Shown here piece by piece: positions 877 through 34,039 of a stretch of DNA of 40,912 nucleotides (its first letter is position 1; each line of letters begins with the position of its first letter). Under the pieces are notes generated by a model that was not told the origin of the DNA, made no database searches, and saw only the letters and a program-made list of their open reading frames with translations. The stretch is taken from assembly GCA_020833255.1 (NCBI GenBank), contig JAJHQR010000006.1, positions 1-40,912 on the forward strand, read 5' to 3'. The DNA is from Desulfurococcaceae archaeon. GTDB lineage: Archaea > Thermoproteota > Thermoprotei_A > Sulfolobales > NBVN01. Both the position numbers and the translations under genes were made by a program.

Positions 877-2685
877 TTAAAACTCTTGAGAACTTTTCGA
901 GGTAGGTAGGAATAAGTTCCTCACGTAGATTTTAGTGAATTCCTTGTTTGCCGAGATTTCCACGTACTTAGTTCTTCGAGCTATTTCTTCCGCTTTCTTC
1001 CTAGCAATACTTGACTTCAGGATTAGTTTCGCCCCACTTATAGCGGTATTCCCTACGAAAACTGCTTTATTAACCCAGGACTCGTGGATTAACCCTATCG
1101 TAGCAGCGTTCTCCACGTTCAAGCTAGTTCCGAAAGATCCTGCTATGAAGACTTTCCCCACGTCCTCGAACCCTATGCTCGCCTCCTTCAACACTATCTG
1201 CGTTACCGACGCTACGGCCGCCTTAGCGAGTAAGAGAGACTCTATATCATCTCTATAAATAGCTATATCTTCATTAATGCCTGACTCCCCACCCCACACT
1301 ACCACGAACCTTTGATCGCCTTCTCTCTTAAGTCTCCTAGATACTACGTTCTTAAACCTCCCCCTCTCGTCGATTATCCCGTGCTTGTAGAGATGCGCTA
1401 ACGCGTCAATATACGCCGAGCCACAAATACCTAGAGGCTTCCCACCACCCACTACCTCGTAACGAACCTCGTAATCTCCTGAAGCTTCATTAAAATATAT
1501 GAAAATCTTTGATATAGCGCCTTCAACAGCCTTCAAACCATACCTAGTCCCGAAACCCTCGAATGCCGGCCCTGCAGGAGCTGAGGCAGCGTAGAGTTCC
1601 TCACCGTTGTTAACCATGACTTCCGCGTTAGTACCTACGTCTATTAAAACACATGGCACCTCACACTCGTCAAGACCTACCGCTAGAGCGCCTGCGACGG
1701 CGTCCCCGCCCACGAACCCCGCAATACCAGGGCCTACGTAGACGTAGCCGTTAGGGTTGATCCTAAAACCGACCTCCCCAGACCTGAACTCAAGTCCTTG
1801 AGTGAATACTGGGACGTAAGGAGCTCTCCCTAGGTTGGCGGGGTCAACCCCTAAGAGTAGGTGAGTCATCACGTTATTACCTACTAACACGACCTCATAG
1901 ATATTCTCCGGCCTCACACCAGCCTTGGAGGAAGCCTCAAGTATTAACTCGTTAATCGAGTTTATGACGTCTTGACGCAACACCTCAAGACGTTCCAAGC
2001 TACTGGAGACGTACGCTATTCTCGACATGACATCGGGTCCGAAGACTTGCTGAGGGTTCGGTGATGAAGCAATAGCTAGCGTCTCACCACTCCTTAAGTT
2101 CAGTAAGTGAATAACGATCCTGGAAGTTCCTACGTCAACCGCTAGACCATACAACTCACTCTCTTTATTCCCGCACTCAACATCCAGTAATTCATTATTT
2201 CTTAAAGTCGCCGTGACCTCCCACCCACACCCCCTGAGTATTTGAGGGAGTTCCCTAAGCAATTTCAGGGGGATTTTAGGAGCCTCTAAACCACTCAGTA
2301 ATCTGCTTAAGTCGGATCTCTGATCCTCTAAGCTGGGTGGAGGTATCTTGAGGAAGTGCTTACGTACGAGCGGTGATAAATCGAAAGGCTTTTCGAAACC
2401 TACGTCCACGGACTTATAAGATGTTGTGAGGCTTGATTCAGGGACCTCCACCAAGGCTTCATCACTAATTAAGCGTGTTTGGCAAGCTAGTCTGAAACCG
2501 TCAAGTATTAACTCACCTAAAACTCTACGCTCGCTCAAACTACTCTCCGAGAAAGCCCCTGACAAGACCTTAACAACGCATTTACCGCATAACCCAAGCC
2601 CGCCGCAGTCAGACCTAACGTCAACGCTTTGATTCCTAAGTAGATCGAGTAGTACCTCACCACCACCAGACTTAACTAACCTCAC
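877..2685 (-). CDS. RACE protein: reductive activator of corrinoid proteins (N-terminal 2Fe-2S ferredoxin domain + ASKHA ATPase domain, RamA/COG3894-like)
   Basis: DCGGLGLCGKC 2Fe-2S motif; GLAVDVGTSRIVIHLL, VGNNVMTHLLLGVDPANLGRAPYVP, VGPGIAGFVGGDAVAGALA, IDVGTNAEVM; adjacent to corrinoid protein and methyltransferase. Confidence 0.85.
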   Translation of the reverse strand: MRLVKSGGGEVLLDLLRNQSVDVRSDCGGLGLCGKCVVKVLSGAFSESSLSERRVLGELILDGFRLACQTRLISDEALVEVPESSLTTSYKSVDVGFEKPFDLSPLVRKHFLKIPPPSLEDQRSDLSRLLSGLEAPKIPLKLLRELPQILRGCGWEVTATLRNNELLDVECGNKESELYGLAVDVGTSRIVIHLLNLRSGETLAIASSPNPQQVFGPDVMSRIAYVSSSLERLEVLRQDVINSINELILEASSKAGVRPENIYEVVLVGNNVMTHLLLGVDPANLGRAPYVPVFTQGLEFRSGEVGFRINPNGYVYVGPGIAGFVGGDAVAGALAVGLDECEVPCVLIDVGTNAEVMVNNGEELYAASAPAGPAFEGFGTRYGLKAVEGAISKIFIYFNEASGDYEVRYEVVGGGKPLGICGSAYIDALAHLYKHGIIDERGRFKNVVSRRLKREGDQRFVVVWGGESGINEDIAIYRDDIESLLLAKAAVASVTQIVLKEASIGFEDVGKVFIAGSFGTSLNVENAATIGLIHESWVNKAVFVGNTAISGAKLILKSSIARKKAEEIARRTKYVEISANKEFTKIYVRNLFLPTSKSSQEF

Positions 2686-2857
2686 CCTCAGAGCGCTATC
2701 ACCGACCTCCCAACCGTCGCGGTCTTACCTTCATTTCAATCTCTTCTTACTGATTTATTTTGGACTTAATGATTTACAAGGGCATTACCCTTTATCAGGG
2801 TAGATATCTCTGAGAGAGCTTAATAAACTTTATCTATCTTATCCGCCTTAATATTAT

Positions 2858-3520
2858 GTGTGGTGTGAGGTGTTAGCTGAGGATTTAAAGAGAGCCCTGT
2901 ATATGGCGGTGATTGAGGGGGATCCTGAGAAGGCGTTGGGGTATGCTAGGGAACTTCTTAACACAGGGTTTGACGTAAAACAGATAGTTACTGACGTGCT
3001 AGCTCCGGCGATGAGGGTTGTCGGCGAGATGTATGAGAGGGGTGAGTACTTCATAGCTGACCTAATCGCGTCTGCCGAAGCTTTCAAGCAAGTTTTTGAT
3101 AACGTGCTTAAACCCAGGCTATCCTCAAGCGCTGCTAGTAAGGGTGTCGTAGCGGTCTTCGGAACCGTGAGAGGGGATATTCACGAGCTAGGTAAGAACA
3201 TAGCTAAGGCTTTATTCGAGGCTGAGGGGTTTGAAGTCATTGATTTAGGGGTTGACGTGCCTCCGGAGAGATTCGCTGAGGTGGTTGAGTCTAGGAAAGC
3301 TAGGGTAGTCGGTCTCTCAGCGCTAATGACGACCACTATGGTCGAGCAAGCGAGGGTTATCGAGGAACTTAAGCGTAGGGGTCTTAGAGAAAGAGTCATA
3401 GTCGTCGCTGGCGGAGCCCCTGTAACTGAGGATTGGGTGAGGAAGATAGGTGCTGACATATGCGGTGATGACGCATTCAAAGCACTTAAGAAAGTTAAGG
3501 AATTACTAGGTGTTGTGTGA
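2858..3520 (+). CDS. Corrinoid (B12-binding) methyltransferase protein, MtbC/MttC/MtaC-like
   Basis: Helical cap plus B12-binding motif GDIHELGKNIAKALFEAEGFEVIDLGVDVPPERF (DxHxxG); GTG start, possible alternative GTG start at 2870. Confidence 0.9.
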   Translation: MWCEVLAEDLKRALYMAVIEGDPEKALGYARELLNTGFDVKQIVTDVLAPAMRVVGEMYERGEYFIADLIASAEAFKQVFDNVLKPRLSSSAASKGVVAVFGTVRGDIHELGKNIAKALFEAEGFEVIDLGVDVPPERFAEVVESRKARVVGLSALMTTTMVEQARVIEELKRRGLRERVIVVAGGAPVTEDWVRKIGADICGDDAFKALKKVKELLGVV

Positions 3521-4953
3521 TGCCCAAACCCTCCTTAACGACTTTGAGTAGGGGTGAGGCGCTAGAAATACATAGCAGAGCCCTAGACCTGCTCAGCAGG
3601 GTTGGTGTTAGGTTCGAGGACCCTGAAGTAGCTAAGATATTATTAGATGCCGGTGCGGTGAGAACCGATGATAGGGTCTTAATTCCTGAAGAGATGGTTG
3701 GCGAGGCGTTGAAGAACGTGCCTAAGAAGATTGACTTATACGATAGGGACGGGAAGAAGGTTGCTACGCTAGGTGATGGCGCCTTAATATTCAACCCGGG
3801 CTCGGCAGCAATAAAAATCCTTGATTACGGCGCTACGGAGCCCAGGACCCCCACACTAGAAGATCTTAAAAACCTTGTTGTGGTTGTTGAGAACCTAGAA
3901 TTTATGGATGCTCAGAGCACGGCCCTAGTCCCCGGCGACACACCGATAGAGATTAGGGACGCTGTCAGACTCTACCCTATATTGAGATACTCTAGGAAAC
4001 CCATAATTACTGGGGCCTTCACCGTGGAGAACCTCCCGGTAATGCTCGAGATGCTTAAGGTGGTTAGGGAGGATGCTTGGAGAAGACCTTTCACGATATT
4101 CGACGCTTGCCCATCACCCCCTCTCTCTTGGAGTAGAGTAACGTCGAGGAACGTCGTTGATTTAGCTAAGGCCGGGATCCCTTCCGAGATTATTTCAATG
4201 CCTGGTTTAGGGGCTACGGCGCCGGTCACTATAGTAGGTGCTGCAACCCTGCACCACGCCGAGGTTTTAAGCGGTATCGTTCTAGCGCAGGCGGTTTCTA
4301 GGGGTGCTCCAGTTATTTACGGCGGGTCACCAGCGCTCATGCACCCGAGGTACGGGACCCCCTTAATAGTAGCTCCGGAATCTCTCCTGGTGTCCTTGAT
4401 TTACCGAGACCTAGCGAGATTCCTGGAACTTCCCTCACACGCTTATATGGGATTAAGCGACTCTAAGCTAGTTGATTATCAAGCAGGTGCTGAGGAAGCT
4501 TACTCAGCGCTCGCAGCCGCTCTAGCGGGCTTTGACGTGGTCTCAGGTCCCGGCATGCTAGAGTTTGAGAGTGTTCAGTCTCTTGAGAAGTTAGTGCTGG
4601 ATAATGAGGTGTGCGGGCTGGTTAAGAGGGTTTCAAGAGGTTTCGGCATGAGTGTTGAAGAGATAGCTGTCGAGGTTGTTGAGGAAACAGTGCTTAGAAA
4701 AGGAGGCAACTTCCTCCTACACCCTCACACAAGGAGGTATCTTAGGAGGGAGGTGCACGTACCACGCGTGTGGGACGCAACCCCTAGATCTAGGTGGGGC
4801 ATGAGGAGCGTGTATGAGGAAGCGCATGCCACAGTCCTTAAATTACTTAAGGAAGGCCCCTACCACGAATTAAGCCCTGACGTTCTAGCAGAGCTAGATA
4901 AGGTTTATGAGAGGCTGTGGAGAGGGGCGGGTTCCGAACCTAAGTACGTTTAA
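3517..4953 (+). CDS. MttB superfamily (trimethylamine/glycine-betaine-type) corrinoid methyltransferase without pyrrolysine codon
   Basis: Continuous 478-aa ORF with MttB-family features (FNPGSAAIKILDYG, PVTIVGAATLHHAEVLSGIVLAQ, GAPVIYGGSPALMHPRYG, GLSDSKLVDYQAG, LLHPHTRRYLRREVHVP); no in-frame amber; overlaps the corrinoid gene by 4 nt. Confidence 0.85.
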   Translation: MMPKPSLTTLSRGEALEIHSRALDLLSRVGVRFEDPEVAKILLDAGAVRTDDRVLIPEEMVGEALKNVPKKIDLYDRDGKKVATLGDGALIFNPGSAAIKILDYGATEPRTPTLEDLKNLVVVVENLEFMDAQSTALVPGDTPIEIRDAVRLYPILRYSRKPIITGAFTVENLPVMLEMLKVVREDAWRRPFTIFDACPSPPLSWSRVTSRNVVDLAKAGIPSEIISMPGLGATAPVTIVGAATLHHAEVLSGIVLAQAVSRGAPVIYGGSPALMHPRYGTPLIVAPESLLVSLIYRDLARFLELPSHAYMGLSDSKLVDYQAGAEEAYSALAAALAGFDVVSGPGMLEFESVQSLEKLVLDNEVCGLVKRVSRGFGMSVEEIAVEVVEETVLRKGGNFLLHPHTRRYLRREVHVPRVWDATPRSRWGMRSVYEEAHATVLKLLKEGPYHELSPDVLAELDKVYERLWRGAGSEPKYV

Positions 4954-5930
4954 GTCACGTACCTCTCAAAAGCTTTAGTAGCCCTCACGACCCTCTCGAT
5001 CTTGGAGAGAGCTACCTCATACTCTTCCTCACGACCCCCTAGAGAACCTCTTAACCCGGCGAACCCGCAGTCAGCTGAAACTAAGTCAACCCTCCCACCA
5101 CTCACCTCATACACCTTCTTAAGAAGCTCTAGAACCTCCTCATAATCCTCCACTTCAATTTTTCTCGAACTCACAACACCTGGCGAGATAATCTTATCGT
5201 AAGACTCAAGTAATCCCTTATCAAGAACCTCGACGTTCTTGGGGTTGTCGTGAAACTCAAAACTCAAGTACCTGATTCTACCCACCCTTGCTAAGAGTTC
5301 TAGAAGCCTCTTATGAATTCGGCCGCACACGTGAACCCCTACCTCAACCCCTTCAGCAGCTCTCGCTACGTTCTCTAAGACCCCTACAATCTCGTCATCA
5401 CTATAGTTAAGGAGGTTTCTCCTAGAGCCTACCATGAGTCCCAGGAAGGGCTCGTCCAAGAACACGACCGTGAACCCTAAAGACGCCATGTACTTCACGA
5501 AGCCGGCCACATAGTTAGTGAGGAAACCCTCAACTAACTCCTTACTGGATAGGAGGGTTGAGGCGAGATCTGTGGACTTCATACTTAGGTAGAGTCTAGA
5601 AGCAAGAGTGAAAACCCCTGTTACAGGAGCTCTTAACCCGCTAAACACTAAATTAGACTCCCTGACTAAACGTACCGTGTATTCTGCCTCAGGAACGCTG
5701 AGACCTCCGATGATTCGCTTGTCGAGCATGCCTGAAGCCATCCTCAGGAAATTTCCCGCATACCTCACCACACCTGCTTCAATCAAGGGACTCACGTAAA
5801 TATCAATGAAACCCCTCAGCTGAGGATATGGAGGAACGTCAACCCCCAAAATAGCTAAGTCTTTCACTACTCTCTCAACGTTCCGAAGATCGTGCTCAAG
5901 CGGAAAACTACCAACGTGACTACTCCTCAT
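4950..5930 (-). CDS. Core (C-terminal barrel only) cobalamin-independent-type methionine synthase, MetE-like
   Basis: SHVGSFP start motif, FLDEP, Zn-ligand pattern HVC...E...C (GVHVCGRI, LSFEFHDNPKN, VSADCGFAGL); ORF track start is 5960 but ATG at 5930 (MRSSHVGSFP) fits the family better. Confidence 0.8.
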   Translation of the reverse strand: MRSSHVGSFPLEHDLRNVERVVKDLAILGVDVPPYPQLRGFIDIYVSPLIEAGVVRYAGNFLRMASGMLDKRIIGGLSVPEAEYTVRLVRESNLVFSGLRAPVTGVFTLASRLYLSMKSTDLASTLLSSKELVEGFLTNYVAGFVKYMASLGFTVVFLDEPFLGLMVGSRRNLLNYSDDEIVGVLENVARAAEGVEVGVHVCGRIHKRLLELLARVGRIRYLSFEFHDNPKNVEVLDKGLLESYDKIISPGVVSSRKIEVEDYEEVLELLKKVYEVSGGRVDLVSADCGFAGLRGSLGGREEEYEVALSKIERVVRATKAFERYVT

Positions 5931-5972
5931 AACACCAACCCAAAATATAAAGTCCAACACAAGATAATTTAG

Positions 5973-6407
5973 CTAAGTCTGCTTAGCGAATGTTTCATTA
6001 AGTAAACGCTTAACTACTTCAACAACTCTTAACGCGTCTTCAAGTGCTTGTGTAGCGTCTTTTCTCGTGTAGAGTTCCTCGGGAGGGACACCTATTTCCT
6101 CATCTCCATACATCGCTAATTCTCTCTCCTTCCTTAACGAACGCGATATTGAAGCTAAATCATCCACGAGTTCCTGAAACCATTGCGGAAATCTCGCTCT
6201 CTCCCTCCTTAATAAAGGTCCCACATCATGCCATTTAGGCGGCTCGATCCCGGCTAACCTTAGAGCACCTTTTAGAGAAAGCTCGACTGCTTCTTGAGAC
6301 TGCCTAACCACATACGGGTAGTTACCTGATTCTAAGGCTTCTCTAGCGTGTTTTAAGCGTTCCTCAGCTTGCTTAAGGTTTGACTTAGCTAACTCGATGT
6401 TATTCAA
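5973..6407 (-). CDS. HEPN domain protein
   Basis: HEPN-type sequence (SNYPYVVRQSQEAVELSLKGALRLAGIEPPKWHDVGPLL; YGDEEIGVPPEELYTRKDA); overlaps the upstream MNT gene by 8 nt. Confidence 0.8.
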   Translation of the reverse strand: MNNIELAKSNLKQAEERLKHAREALESGNYPYVVRQSQEAVELSLKGALRLAGIEPPKWHDVGPLLRRERARFPQWFQELVDDLASISRSLRKERELAMYGDEEIGVPPEELYTRKDATQALEDALRVVEVVKRLLNETFAKQT

Positions 6408-6936
6408 TGTTTATCACCTCGCCAGCCTTGGAGTCTTTCTTAAGTAGCCAATACCACTTCTTGCCGAGCCAGACTCTCTCAGAGCCTAGCTTACTCAACT
6501 CTTCTCTAAGTCGTAGTAATATGTTCTCGAAGAAAGAATCTTTATCGTATACTATGACCGCGTCCTCAGTCATGTCGAGATATAATGGGCTTATTTTCTT
6601 GGCTTCATCTCTAGTCTTAAGTATTGGCGTGATTGAGACGGCGTAGCCCTCTGTAAGCAACTTATCAAGTAGTGGATCTATGTTCTCCTCGGCTCTGAGG
6701 TACTGAGCTAGTCTCTCGAGACGTGACCTAGGTAAGTCCTCGATAATTATAAGGATGTCTAAGTCGCTATCTCTCCTGGCAGTACCGCGGGCAGCACTGC
6801 CGAAGACAACCACTGATACTAGTCTCCCACCAAAAAACTTGAGTAATTCCTTGAGGAGTTCCTCAACAACAGTCTTGTAAGGGTCTTTCAAGTAATCAAT
6901 ACCCTTCCTAAACACCCTAAACACCGTTCTAAGCAT
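6400..6936 (-). CDS. Minimal nucleotidyltransferase (MNT) domain protein
   Basis: VVVFGSAARGTARRDSDLDILIII (GS..DxD Pol-beta NTase motif). Confidence 0.85.
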   Translation of the reverse strand: MLRTVFRVFRKGIDYLKDPYKTVVEELLKELLKFFGGRLVSVVVFGSAARGTARRDSDLDILIIIEDLPRSRLERLAQYLRAEENIDPLLDKLLTEGYAVSITPILKTRDEAKKISPLYLDMTEDAVIVYDKDSFFENILLRLREELSKLGSERVWLGKKWYWLLKKDSKAGEVINIE

Positions 6937-18685: not shown

Positions 18686-20005
18686 TTACCTCACAGCAAG
18701 CAACTCAGCGTTCTTAACCAGGAATTCCTCGAAGTCGTTAACGAACTTATCTATTTCCTCCGGCGTGTGAGCTATTGAGAGGAATAAGTGGGGTTTTGCT
18801 GGTGATAGGTAGAGGGTGTTCCTCCCCACCATGTGTTTGAATAAGAGCTCGCACGCTCTCAGATTCTTGGTTTTCTCGCTAGTTAGCGGGTCTTTAGGTG
18901 CTTCCTTAGTGAAGTGTATCCCTATCATTGACCCGAGGCCTGTTATGTGGCACTGAGCGCTAGCTCTCCCTACAGAGTCTTCCAAGCCCTTAATTAACCT
19001 ATTCCCTAACGCGTAGAGTTTCTCGTAAAACGATTCCCCCTTACTGAGGAGTTCGGAGATTAGCGTGTAGCCAGCCCTCATGGTTAGGGGGTTGCCGACG
19101 AACGTGCCTCCGTGGAACGCTCTCTCCCAAAACCTAGGCCTCGCCACCTGATTCATGAGTTCTAGATACTCTGAAGAACCCACTATAGCTCCCGCGCCAG
19201 CGAAATACTGCCCGCCAACAGCTTTCCCGGCCGTTACTATGTCCGGCCTCACGCCGTAGTAGTTTTGAGCACCCTTATAGAATCTGAAGCCCGTTATAAC
19301 CTCGTCGAATATTAGGAGAAAGCCTTTCTCGTCAGCTAATTCCCTAAGTCCTTTAAGGAAATCTCTCTGAGCCGGGATACACCCGGCCACACCGACCACT
19401 GGTTCAACGATGACGGCCGCTAAATCCTCGTTCTTCACCACCTCCCTCACACCGTCTAAGTCGTTGTAAGGTAGCAGGACTGTGTAATCGGCTTTCACGT
19501 ACTGCATATCGAGTGAGGATGGGTGATCGTACGGGTAATTCACGGCTACGTGTAGCTCCGGGTAACCGCCGTGCCATCCACCGATAAACTTACCTATCTT
19601 CTTTTTCTTGGTGTAAGCTCTGGCCAGCCTGATAGCGTACATGTTGGCTTCAGTTCCTGAGTTGGTTGGTTTAGCCATGTCTAGACCGAACCACTGAGTC
19701 ACTGCCTCAGCCCACTTAACCTCCCACTCATTACACCACCCGAAGTGGGTGCCTAAGGCTAGCTGCTCCCTAACCGCTTCGAGCACGGGCTCATACCCGA
19801 AGCCCGTGACTACGGCTCCGTGACCCATCCAGTAATCAACGTATTCGTTGCCGTCGACATCCCATACTCTAGACCCCTTCGCTCTAACTATGTATATCGG
19901 GTGTGGGTCGAAATACCTTAAAGAGTAGGAGACCCCTCCTGGGAGGTACTTCCTAGCTTCCTCGTAGATCTTCGCCGATCCCCTCAGGTCCTCCCAGCGA
20001 ACCAC
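18686..20005 (-). CDS. Class III PLP aminotransferase, glutamate-1-semialdehyde aminomutase-like
   Basis: PTNSGTEANMYAIRLARAYT, GGWHGGYPE, LLIFDEVITGFR, TAGKAVGGQYFAGA, ERAFHGGTFVGNPLTM. Confidence 0.85.
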   Translation of the reverse strand: MVRWEDLRGSAKIYEEARKYLPGGVSYSLRYFDPHPIYIVRAKGSRVWDVDGNEYVDYWMGHGAVVTGFGYEPVLEAVREQLALGTHFGWCNEWEVKWAEAVTQWFGLDMAKPTNSGTEANMYAIRLARAYTKKKKIGKFIGGWHGGYPELHVAVNYPYDHPSSLDMQYVKADYTVLLPYNDLDGVREVVKNEDLAAVIVEPVVGVAGCIPAQRDFLKGLRELADEKGFLLIFDEVITGFRFYKGAQNYYGVRPDIVTAGKAVGGQYFAGAGAIVGSSEYLELMNQVARPRFWERAFHGGTFVGNPLTMRAGYTLISELLSKGESFYEKLYALGNRLIKGLEDSVGRASAQCHITGLGSMIGIHFTKEAPKDPLTSEKTKNLRACELLFKHMVGRNTLYLSPAKPHLFLSIAHTPEEIDKFVNDFEEFLVKNAELLAVR

Positions 20006-21033
20006 CTGTAATCACCTAGAAACGCTGAGGGCGTTATCACGTCCTTCATCGTTATGAGCCCTGGAGGTGCTTGAAGGACTCTCGGTATGATGTTGACGAC
20101 CATTGAAGCAGTAGCTATGTCGCCTGGAACCCCCGTCTCACACCTCCAACGCATTGTGGGGTTCCCCTCTATTAGCACCTCGTCGTAGTCTTCCCTACCC
20201 ACGGAAGCCAGCAAGTCTAACCTAACGAATTCCGCGCCGTTGACGTAGCCGACACCCCACCCGTGAATGCCTGAGACTCTGCCAGGACCTATCTTGAAGT
20301 ACTGTGTCTCTAAGTATTCCTCAGCTACTATGGGTTCCTGCCCTTCCTCAACCCTCTCTATGCTCACGCCGAGGATGCATCCTAAAAGCATTATTGATTC
20401 CGCGTACCCTACGTGAGCGCTTATCTCGCCAGCACGCAGCTTAGACTCGAACTCTTCCGGCGTTAAGGATAACCCGTATTTTTTCTGGAACGAGTACCTC
20501 CTCTTAGAAGCGTCTAAAGACCTGACCACGTGTATCCTGCGTACCTCGGCGGAAACAGACGTCAGGAAAGCCGGTAACGCGTCGAACACAAACCCCGGGT
20601 TAACTCCCGTACCAATAACCCTAACTTTATTCTTCTTAGCTAACTCATCAATCATTAAAGACAGCTCAGGATACCTATACCAGGGATAAGCCAGGGTCTC
20701 CGAGGTTGACACCACGTTAGCGCCTGCGGAAACCGCCCTAACGATTTGAGGGTATATGCGGTCTAGGTAGGTACCGGTAGAGATAATCACTACGTCAGGC
20801 TTAACAGACCTCAAGAAACCCCATGAGTTTGAGTCATGAACTACCTTAACACCTAAACCCCTACCCAACCCAGCCACAATCCCTAAGTCCTCACCGACCT
20901 TGGAAGTATCTACATCCACCCCTCCAACTAACTCAACACCCTTCCTAGAACTAAGGAGCTTGACAATAAGAGACCCTATAGGGCCCACACCATAAATAAC
21001 TACCCTCAAGTTCTCAGACATTAAACACACCAA
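19984..21033 (-). CDS. NAD(P)-binding oxidoreductase, 2,4-diaminopentanoate dehydrogenase (Ord)/DapB_N-like
   Basis: VVIYGVGPIGSLIVKLLSSRKGVELVGGVD, GVNPGFVFDALPAFLTS, overall Ord-like length and order; overlaps aminotransferase by 22 nt. Confidence 0.7.
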   Translation of the reverse strand: MVCLMSENLRVVIYGVGPIGSLIVKLLSSRKGVELVGGVDVDTSKVGEDLGIVAGLGRGLGVKVVHDSNSWGFLRSVKPDVVIISTGTYLDRIYPQIVRAVSAGANVVSTSETLAYPWYRYPELSLMIDELAKKNKVRVIGTGVNPGFVFDALPAFLTSVSAEVRRIHVVRSLDASKRRYSFQKKYGLSLTPEEFESKLRAGEISAHVGYAESIMLLGCILGVSIERVEEGQEPIVAEEYLETQYFKIGPGRVSGIHGWGVGYVNGAEFVRLDLLASVGREDYDEVLIEGNPTMRWRCETGVPGDIATASMVVNIIPRVLQAPPGLITMKDVITPSAFLGDYRWFAGRT

Positions 21034-32782: not shown

Positions 32783-34039
32783 ATGGTAGCATTTAAGGTT
32801 GCTGATTTAGGGTTAAGTGAGGCCGGGTTTAAGATTATTGAGTGGGCTGAGAGGCACATGCCCGTCTTAATGAGGCTTAAGAACGAGTTTATGAGGGAGA
32901 AACCCTTAAGCGGTGTTAGGGTTGCCGCCGTTCTCCACGTGACTAAAGCTACCGCAGTCTTAGTGAGGGTTCTGGTTAGCGGCGGTGCTGAGGTTTGGTT
33001 AGCGGGGAGTAACCCCCTCTCCACTCAGGACGCCGTGGCCGCCGCCCTAGCGTCTGAGGGTGTGCACGTGTTCGCTTGGAGGGGGCAGACGCCTGCGGAG
33101 TACTACGAGTGTATATCTAGGGTGGCTTCCTCGGAACCTAACGTAGTCATAGATGATGGTGCGGACCTGCACGCGTACTTACACAGCGAGCGCAGAGACG
33201 TAGGCTCCAGGGTTTGGGGAGGGACTGAAGAGACTACTACAGGAGTTAATAGGTTGAGATCTCTTGAGAGGAGTGGGAGGCTCCTATACCCTGTGATAGC
33301 TGTTAACGACTCGTTAACTAAGTTCATGTTTGATAATAGGTACGGTACGGGGCAGTCAGCGATTGACGGGATACTTAGGGCTACGAACGTTCTCCTAGCA
33401 GGCAAGATCTTCGTGGTGGCCGGGTACGGGTGGGTAGGTAAGGGAATAGCTATGAGAGCGCGTGGCATGGGCGCTAGGGTGGTTGTGACTGAGGTAGATC
33501 CTGTGAGAGCTTTAGAAGCCGTTATGGATGGTTTCGAGGTAATGCCTATGAGTAAGGCTAGCTTGATAGGGGATATCTTCGTCACCGCTACCGGGAATAA
33601 GGGGGTGATTAGGGAGGAGCACTTCAAGGTGATGAAGGACGGGGCAATACTGTGTAACGCAGGACACTTCAACGTGGAGGTAAGCGTTGAAGACCTGGAG
33701 AGGATTTCGGTAGGTAAGAGGGTTGTGAGACCCAACCTAGAAGAGTACTCACTCCCCGACGGCAGGAAGCTCTACCTAATAGGTGAGGGCAGGCTAGTCA
33801 ACCTAGTAGCTGCTGAGGGACACCCCAGCGAGGTAATGGACATGAGCTTCGCTAATCAAGCACTAGCAACCAAGTACATAGTCCTAAACAAGGAGAAGCT
33901 TGAGAAACGCGTTCACGTATTGCCGAGAAGCATAGACGAGAGGATAGCTGAGATTAAGCTAGAGTCAATGAATATAGAAATAGATAAGCTAACGGAGGAG
34001 CAGATAAGGTACTTAACGTCGTGGGAGTACGGGACGTAA
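32783..34039 (+). CDS. ahcY: Adenosylhomocysteinase
   Basis: [70 protein letters not shown]. Confidence 0.95.

Follow-up and report, generated by a model that had tools for sequence, protein, structure and literature searches.

The window, of 40,912 nucleotides, is an entire contig of the draft genome (1.33 Mb, 77 contigs, 99% complete) of a thermophilic Desulfurococcaceae archaeon, judged non-methanogenic from its kinship to relatives. It carries genes for a reductive activator of corrinoid proteins (RACo), a corrinoid protein, an MttB homolog and a MetE-like protein, all four lying where the original prediction had placed them (Table 1). Read from its GTG start, the MttB gene shares 4 nt with the corrinoid gene; read from the ATG at 3520, it shares 1 nt. 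It is convergent with the MetE-like gene, and the two 3′ ends overlap by 4 nt; because they are on opposite strands, this pair is not co-transcribed. The true start of the MetE-like gene is probably the conserved ATG at 5930 (MRSSHVGSFPL), the boundary originally assigned to it.

Table 1 Features of the four-gene cluster and the S-adenosylhomocysteine hydrolase gene of the same contig
Feature	Position	Strand	Basis
RACo/AcsV-type reductive activator of corrinoid proteins	877..2685	-	PF00111, PF17650, PF17651, PF14574
Corrinoid (cobamide-binding) protein, MtbC/MtgC/MttC type	2858..3520	+	PF02607 + PF02310, TIGR02370 178 bits
DxHxxG cobalt-ligand motif (DIHELG) of the corrinoid protein	3176..3193	+	Sequence
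Non-pyrrolysine MttB-superfamily methyltransferase, predicted N-methyl substrate:corrinoid	3517..4953	+	PF06253, TIGR02369 310 bits (sub-cut-off)
Core single-barrel MetE-like methionine synthase (predicted)	4950..5960	-	PF01717, residues, fold
S-adenosylhomocysteine hydrolase	32783..34039	+	TIGR00936 above cut-off, PF05221/PF00670

The order corrinoid protein–MttB, with MetE convergent, is repeated in five other genomes from two families. Since the flanking genes differ among them, the arrangement is not due to chance. When the contigs of the genome were profile-searched family by family, PF06253, PF01717 and PF02607 gave one match each, all inside the cluster.

Several other features surround these genes. 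Beside the MetE-like gene, a HEPN/nucleotidyltransferase (MNT) pair has a toxin–antitoxin-like layout (5973-6936), and in Thermofilum NZ13 a comparable pair (L157:7241-7943) lies ahead of the MetE-like gene. At 262-861, an Asp/Glu racemase-family gene is about 30 N-terminal residues short of its 77%-identical relatives, the result of a broken gene, a rearrangement or an assembly join near the contig start. In two genomes of the same genus (G001, an uncultured Sulfolobales MAG, and G003; L046:5261-14505 and L048:2-5970), the region upstream of RACo holds an Opp ABC transporter, a DUF917/S-Me-THD protein, two racemase-family genes and an unassigned 348 aa protein. The Opp, DUF917 and racemase genes, which were not seen adjoining the cluster in G002, G005 or G113, may serve substrate uptake or processing and hint at an imported substrate. 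We set them aside as substrate-defining, as they accompany the cluster in G001 and G003 only and are broken or cut off in the window. Farther along (18686-21033), a glutamate-1-semialdehyde aminotransferase-like gene overlaps a 2,4-diaminopentanoate dehydrogenase-like gene, both below their equivalog cut-offs. The window contains no tRNA.

Assignment of the four proteins

The activator combines a ferredoxin domain (Fer2, 2Fe-2S) with RACo linker, middle and C-terminal ASKHA domains; its four Pfam domains exceed their cut-offs, and its match to NF040756 (AcsV-like) falls under that of the model. The corrinoid protein, which is the genome's sole PF02607 match, contains both the PF02607 and PF02310 domains and carries the DxHxxG motif. 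Its score against TIGR02370 was 178.5 bits (cut-off 215.3), and the NCBIfam models for MtgC and MtbC were missed by a wider margin.

The MttB homolog matches PF06253 with 251.7 bits over profile positions 29-490 of 500. Its closest solved structures are those of the glycine betaine methyltransferase MtgB (9yce, 2qne). Leu313 aligns with the pyrrolysine of 7xcl, and there is no in-frame stop, features by which the protein is assigned to the non-pyrrolysine, MtgB-like members of the MttB superfamily. Judged by family, its substrate is likely to be a quaternary amine or betaine; identity to MtgB is about 30%, so the substrate is not fixed, and glycine betaine is one candidate.

At 336 aa, the MetE-like protein is a single barrel (PF01717, 34.9 bits), neither a double-barrel MetE nor a multidomain MetH. 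Escherichia coli MetE binds zinc through His641, Cys643, Glu665 and Cys726, and homocysteine is bound by Ser433, Glu484 (Gln in MesA and MesC) and Asp599 (PMC7857596). The corresponding zinc-ligand positions (H210, C212, E235 and C298) and homocysteine positions (S18, Q47 for Glu484, and D169) are invariant in 29 homologs. A phmmer search of the PDB with the lone protein gave chance matches only; a profile of the 29 sequences retrieved MetE. Against T. maritima MetE this profile aligned the zinc and homocysteine residues, with S18 (in the GSFP motif) just beyond the aligned stretch. The AF2 model (pLDDT 93.1) had MetE and the MesD-type 3rpd as its best structural matches, and URO-D folds, including the M. 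mazei methyltransferase 4ay7, were also among them. Gln in place of Glu484 is the MesA/MesC state. Most members of MesC have His replacing Cys643 (PMC7857596), a character that the MetE-like protein lacks, Cys212 being invariant in the 29 homologs. No curated NCBIfam methionine synthase cut-off was reached. On its residues and predicted fold, we assign the protein as a core methionine synthase.

Methyl-input enzymes in the genome and its relatives

The second-methyltransferase and pterin families looked for were PF02007 (MtrH/MtgA), PF00809 (pterin-binding), PF01208 (MtaA/MtbA) and the MTHFR-like family A1. MtgA was grouped with MtrH because the MtrH-family proteins of relatives also match the NCBIfam MtgA model. 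None of the four families had a match in the genome, so that, the MetE-like protein excepted, all second-methyltransferase families searched are absent. At profile sensitivity, the single matches to PF01717 and PF02607 exclude MetH and a second or full-length MetE. Neither a full-length MetE or MetH nor a dedicated MtgA or MtbA, which the original prediction had named as evidence that would count against it, was thus found elsewhere in the genome.

We then compared 147 relatives, taking E < 1e-20 as the threshold for a strong MetE-like homolog. Such a homolog was present in 39, and 36 of these also had a PF02607 corrinoid protein, as did four genomes with no strong MetE-like homolog (Fisher p = 3e-26 for co-occurrence, uncorrected for relatedness). 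PF02007 was found in 32 of the 147 genomes, every one MetE-bearing. For MttB, a single-sequence query retrieved no homologs in the relatives, but an alignment of six orthologs did. A close MttB type (70-84% identity) defines six genomes, 93-99% complete and spanning two families, with five of the six in one: G000, G001, G002, G003, G005 (Zestosphaera tikiterensis NZ3) and G113 (Desulfurococcaceae archaeon RSNS19).

No genome with this MetE has both the close MttB type and MtrH. MtrH occurs in 32 of the 33 MetE-like genomes without the close type and in none of the six with it; the seven MetE-bearing genomes without PF02007 are these six and G008, a 76%-complete MAG. The Fisher value for the exclusion, 2e-6, overstates the independent evidence, because five of the six genomes belong to one family. 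PF00809, PF01208 and family A1 are likewise absent from all six. The conserved synteny of MttB, corrinoid protein, RACo and MetE that had been proposed as a check was borne out for the MttB–MetE pair, which is convergent in six of six genomes, while the genes outside the corrinoid–MttB–MetE block vary.

In relatives with no MttB nearby, the MetE-like and corrinoid genes are often clustered, and the cluster typically includes RACo and an MtrH-family gene. Several of these clusters also hold a short protein with no Pfam match, the model of which (pLDDT 86.7) has methylenetetrahydrofolate reductases as its top structural matches. This MTHFR-like family (L064:11385-12089 and homologs, 230-270 aa) is widespread in the order, being present in 104 of the 147 genomes, some without this MetE. 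The Desulfurococcaceae-type loci (L062 to L065 and L160 to L163; for example, L064:7107-12089) contain MetE-like, corrinoid, RACo and MtrH genes, several with the MTHFR-fold protein. These clusters apparently encode a split, methyl-pterin-fed route from methylene-pterin to methionine, by way of MTHFR, MtrH, corrinoid protein and core MetE.

Two Thermofilum MAGs, with 61-62% identical MttBs and a linked corrinoid gene, were predicted in advance to lack MtrH, and this was confirmed; both also lack PF00809 and PF01208. Their MetE-like genes are distant in sequence and do not adjoin MttB, so the MAGs support the exclusion of MtrH by MttB but not the adjacency. G151 has a 53% identical MttB, yet carries MtrH beside MetE.

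Trees gave different histories for the two partners of MttB. The corrinoid proteins that accompany the close-type MttBs fall into a single clade (100/100), which excludes the corrinoids linked to MetE/MtrH and takes in L129, the single Thermofilum partner placed in the tree. In the MetE tree, the G113 enzyme groups with those of the MtrH-bearing G074 and G007 (99/96). Because one tree unites the close-type partners and the other puts G113 with MtrH-bearers, the corrinoid–MttB module appears to have joined MetE on two occasions, or on one with a single reversal, which leaves few independent cases. The trees rule out two simpler histories, namely that the corrinoid gene is a retained ancestral partner of MetE and that MttB and MetE are one simple inherited unit.

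G005 has two MetE-like copies (L049:8115-11211 and L054:5851-8916; 61% and 62% identical to that of the window), both flanked by the same genes and one of them at a contig end, representing either a recent duplication or an assembly repeat. More distant MttBs (about 40% identity), at L057, L059, L061, L164 and L165, are accompanied by genes for a corrinoid protein and an amino acid permease, one of these loci also having a class III aminotransferase. In the genomes concerned, MetE is located elsewhere and MtrH is present.

A proposed route to methionine and its alternatives

We think it probable that the cluster encodes a methionine synthase that works through a corrinoid protein and draws its methyl group from an N-methyl compound, with MttB replacing the methyl-pterin arm. 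MttB would demethylate the substrate onto the cob(I)alamin of the 2858-3520 protein, and the methyl-corrinoid protein would donate directly to homocysteine, bound as a zinc thiolate on the core MetE-like protein, to form methionine. RACo, by analogy with its family, would reduce cob(II)alamin to cob(I)alamin with ATP. Homocysteine may derive at least partly from the SAM cycle, as this contig also carries the S-adenosylhomocysteine hydrolase gene, away from the cluster. Relatives appear to feed the same MetE family through an MtrH-family methyl-pterin:corrinoid methyltransferase and an MTHFR-like enzyme; here, MttB and its own corrinoid protein would take that place. Gene content, synteny and the MttB/MtrH exclusion support the route as originally predicted, from an N-methylated substrate to methionine without folate/H4MPT or CoM.

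It is unlikely that MttB and the corrinoid protein instead form a catabolic demethylase that passes the methyl group to an acceptor enzyme that escaped recognition (a divergent methyltransferase for a pterin or a thiol), with MetE fed elsewhere and its adjacency incidental. The MttB systems described from TACK archaea and from anaerobes do pass the methyl group to a pterin via MtrH or MtgA (PMC9723716, PMC8604678), and the distant MttBs of relatives, with their amino acid permease and aminotransferase, sit away from MetE. However, PF02007, PF00809 and PF01208 are missing from all six genomes, MetE would be left without another partner of the corrinoid family in a genome with one such protein, and MttB stays next to MetE while the flanks change.

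We regard as more improbable still that the MetE-like protein is a zinc thiol methyltransferase whose acceptor is not homocysteine, in which case the cluster would make a different methyl thioether. Its modest PF01717 score, the unreached NCBIfam cut-offs and the resemblance of its model to URO-D folds such as 4ay7 would all fit such an enzyme, but the zinc and homocysteine positions of MetE are all conserved in the 29 homologs, and MetE and MesD structures rank first. In addition, the MetE-like protein is paired in relatives with the enzymes that usually supply methionine synthesis, MtrH and an MTHFR-like protein, and the genome has no other MetE or MetH. Least credible is that incomplete assembly of a 77-contig draft accounts for the absence of MtrH, MTHFR and pterin enzymes (PF02219 also being outside the families searched), with methyl-pterin used as in relatives and MttB an extra input, since the same absences recur in six nearly complete genomes of two families and MtrH is absent from the two Thermofilum MAGs as well.

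Relation to known methyl-transfer systems

The MttB-fed methionine synthase that we propose resembles the core methionine synthases MesA, MesB and MesC (Price et al. 2021, PMC7857596; Deobald et al. 2020, PMC7005905), which likewise have a single MetE barrel with the zinc and homocysteine residues, have a methyl-corrinoid protein as predicted donor and occur in strict anaerobes. That donor is predicted to be MtrA for MesA and the CoFeSP of the Wood-Ljungdahl pathway for MesB and MesC, and both studies leave unsettled which protein supplies the methyl group to core methionine synthases in the cell (PMC7857596, PMC7005905). Here, by contrast, the apparent donor is an MttB-charged corrinoid protein of MtbC/MtgC type, in a lineage for which the Mes literature offers no donor.

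The MtgB/MtgC/MtgA, MtpB, MtcB and MtyB quaternary amine demethylases use the same set of non-pyrrolysine MttB homolog, cognate corrinoid protein and reductive activator, but send the methyl group to tetrahydrofolate (MtgA/MtqA) or CoM (PMC8604678), whereas no such enzyme was found here and MetE stands in its place. In Ruegeria pomeroyi, betaine demethylation by an MttB-family enzyme and methionine synthesis likewise share one corrinoid protein (MtgBCDE; Mausz et al. 2025, PMC12478193). In that system, neither process works without the pterin methyltransferase MtgD, and homocysteine is handled by a module of MetH/BHMT type (PF02574). The present genome yielded no pterin enzyme, and a core MetE stands where that module would be. 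Clusters of mtrH, mttB and corrinoid genes in TACK archaea, such as Culexarchaeia, have the same MttB, corrinoid protein and activator in thermophilic non-methanogens. Their mtrH adjoins mttB and they are read as quaternary amine catabolism, methionine going unmentioned in the text searched (PMC9723716). Neither an MttB-fed core methionine synthase lacking a detectable pterin enzyme nor the MtrH-fed arrangement was found described in the open-licence literature searched. The constituent families are already known; what is new, within that literature, is MttB feeding a core MetE, together with its MtrH-fed sister.

If the proposed route holds, the cluster is a natural substitution, in which the same MetE family has an MtrH-type donor in most relatives and an MttB-type donor here, and it names the protein pairs involved. 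It would also show how methionine and SAM could be produced where no methyl-pterin enzymes are detected, and would give MttB-family enzymes, commonly annotated as methylotrophy genes, a non-catabolic use. A wider reading, which we offer tentatively and rate a little short of an even chance, is that the lineage is a methyl auxotroph that has lost the pterin route and scavenges all methyl groups for methionine and SAM via MttB and core MetE, the core MetE of hyperthermophilic archaea being one half of a modular methionine synthase, with an exchangeable input (MtrH, MttB or perhaps URO-D). The corrinoid and MetE-like genes of G007 and G137 have genes for URO-D superfamily proteins as neighbours (L053:6984-8069 and L056:11061-12353), possibly encoding a third kind of methyl-input enzyme.
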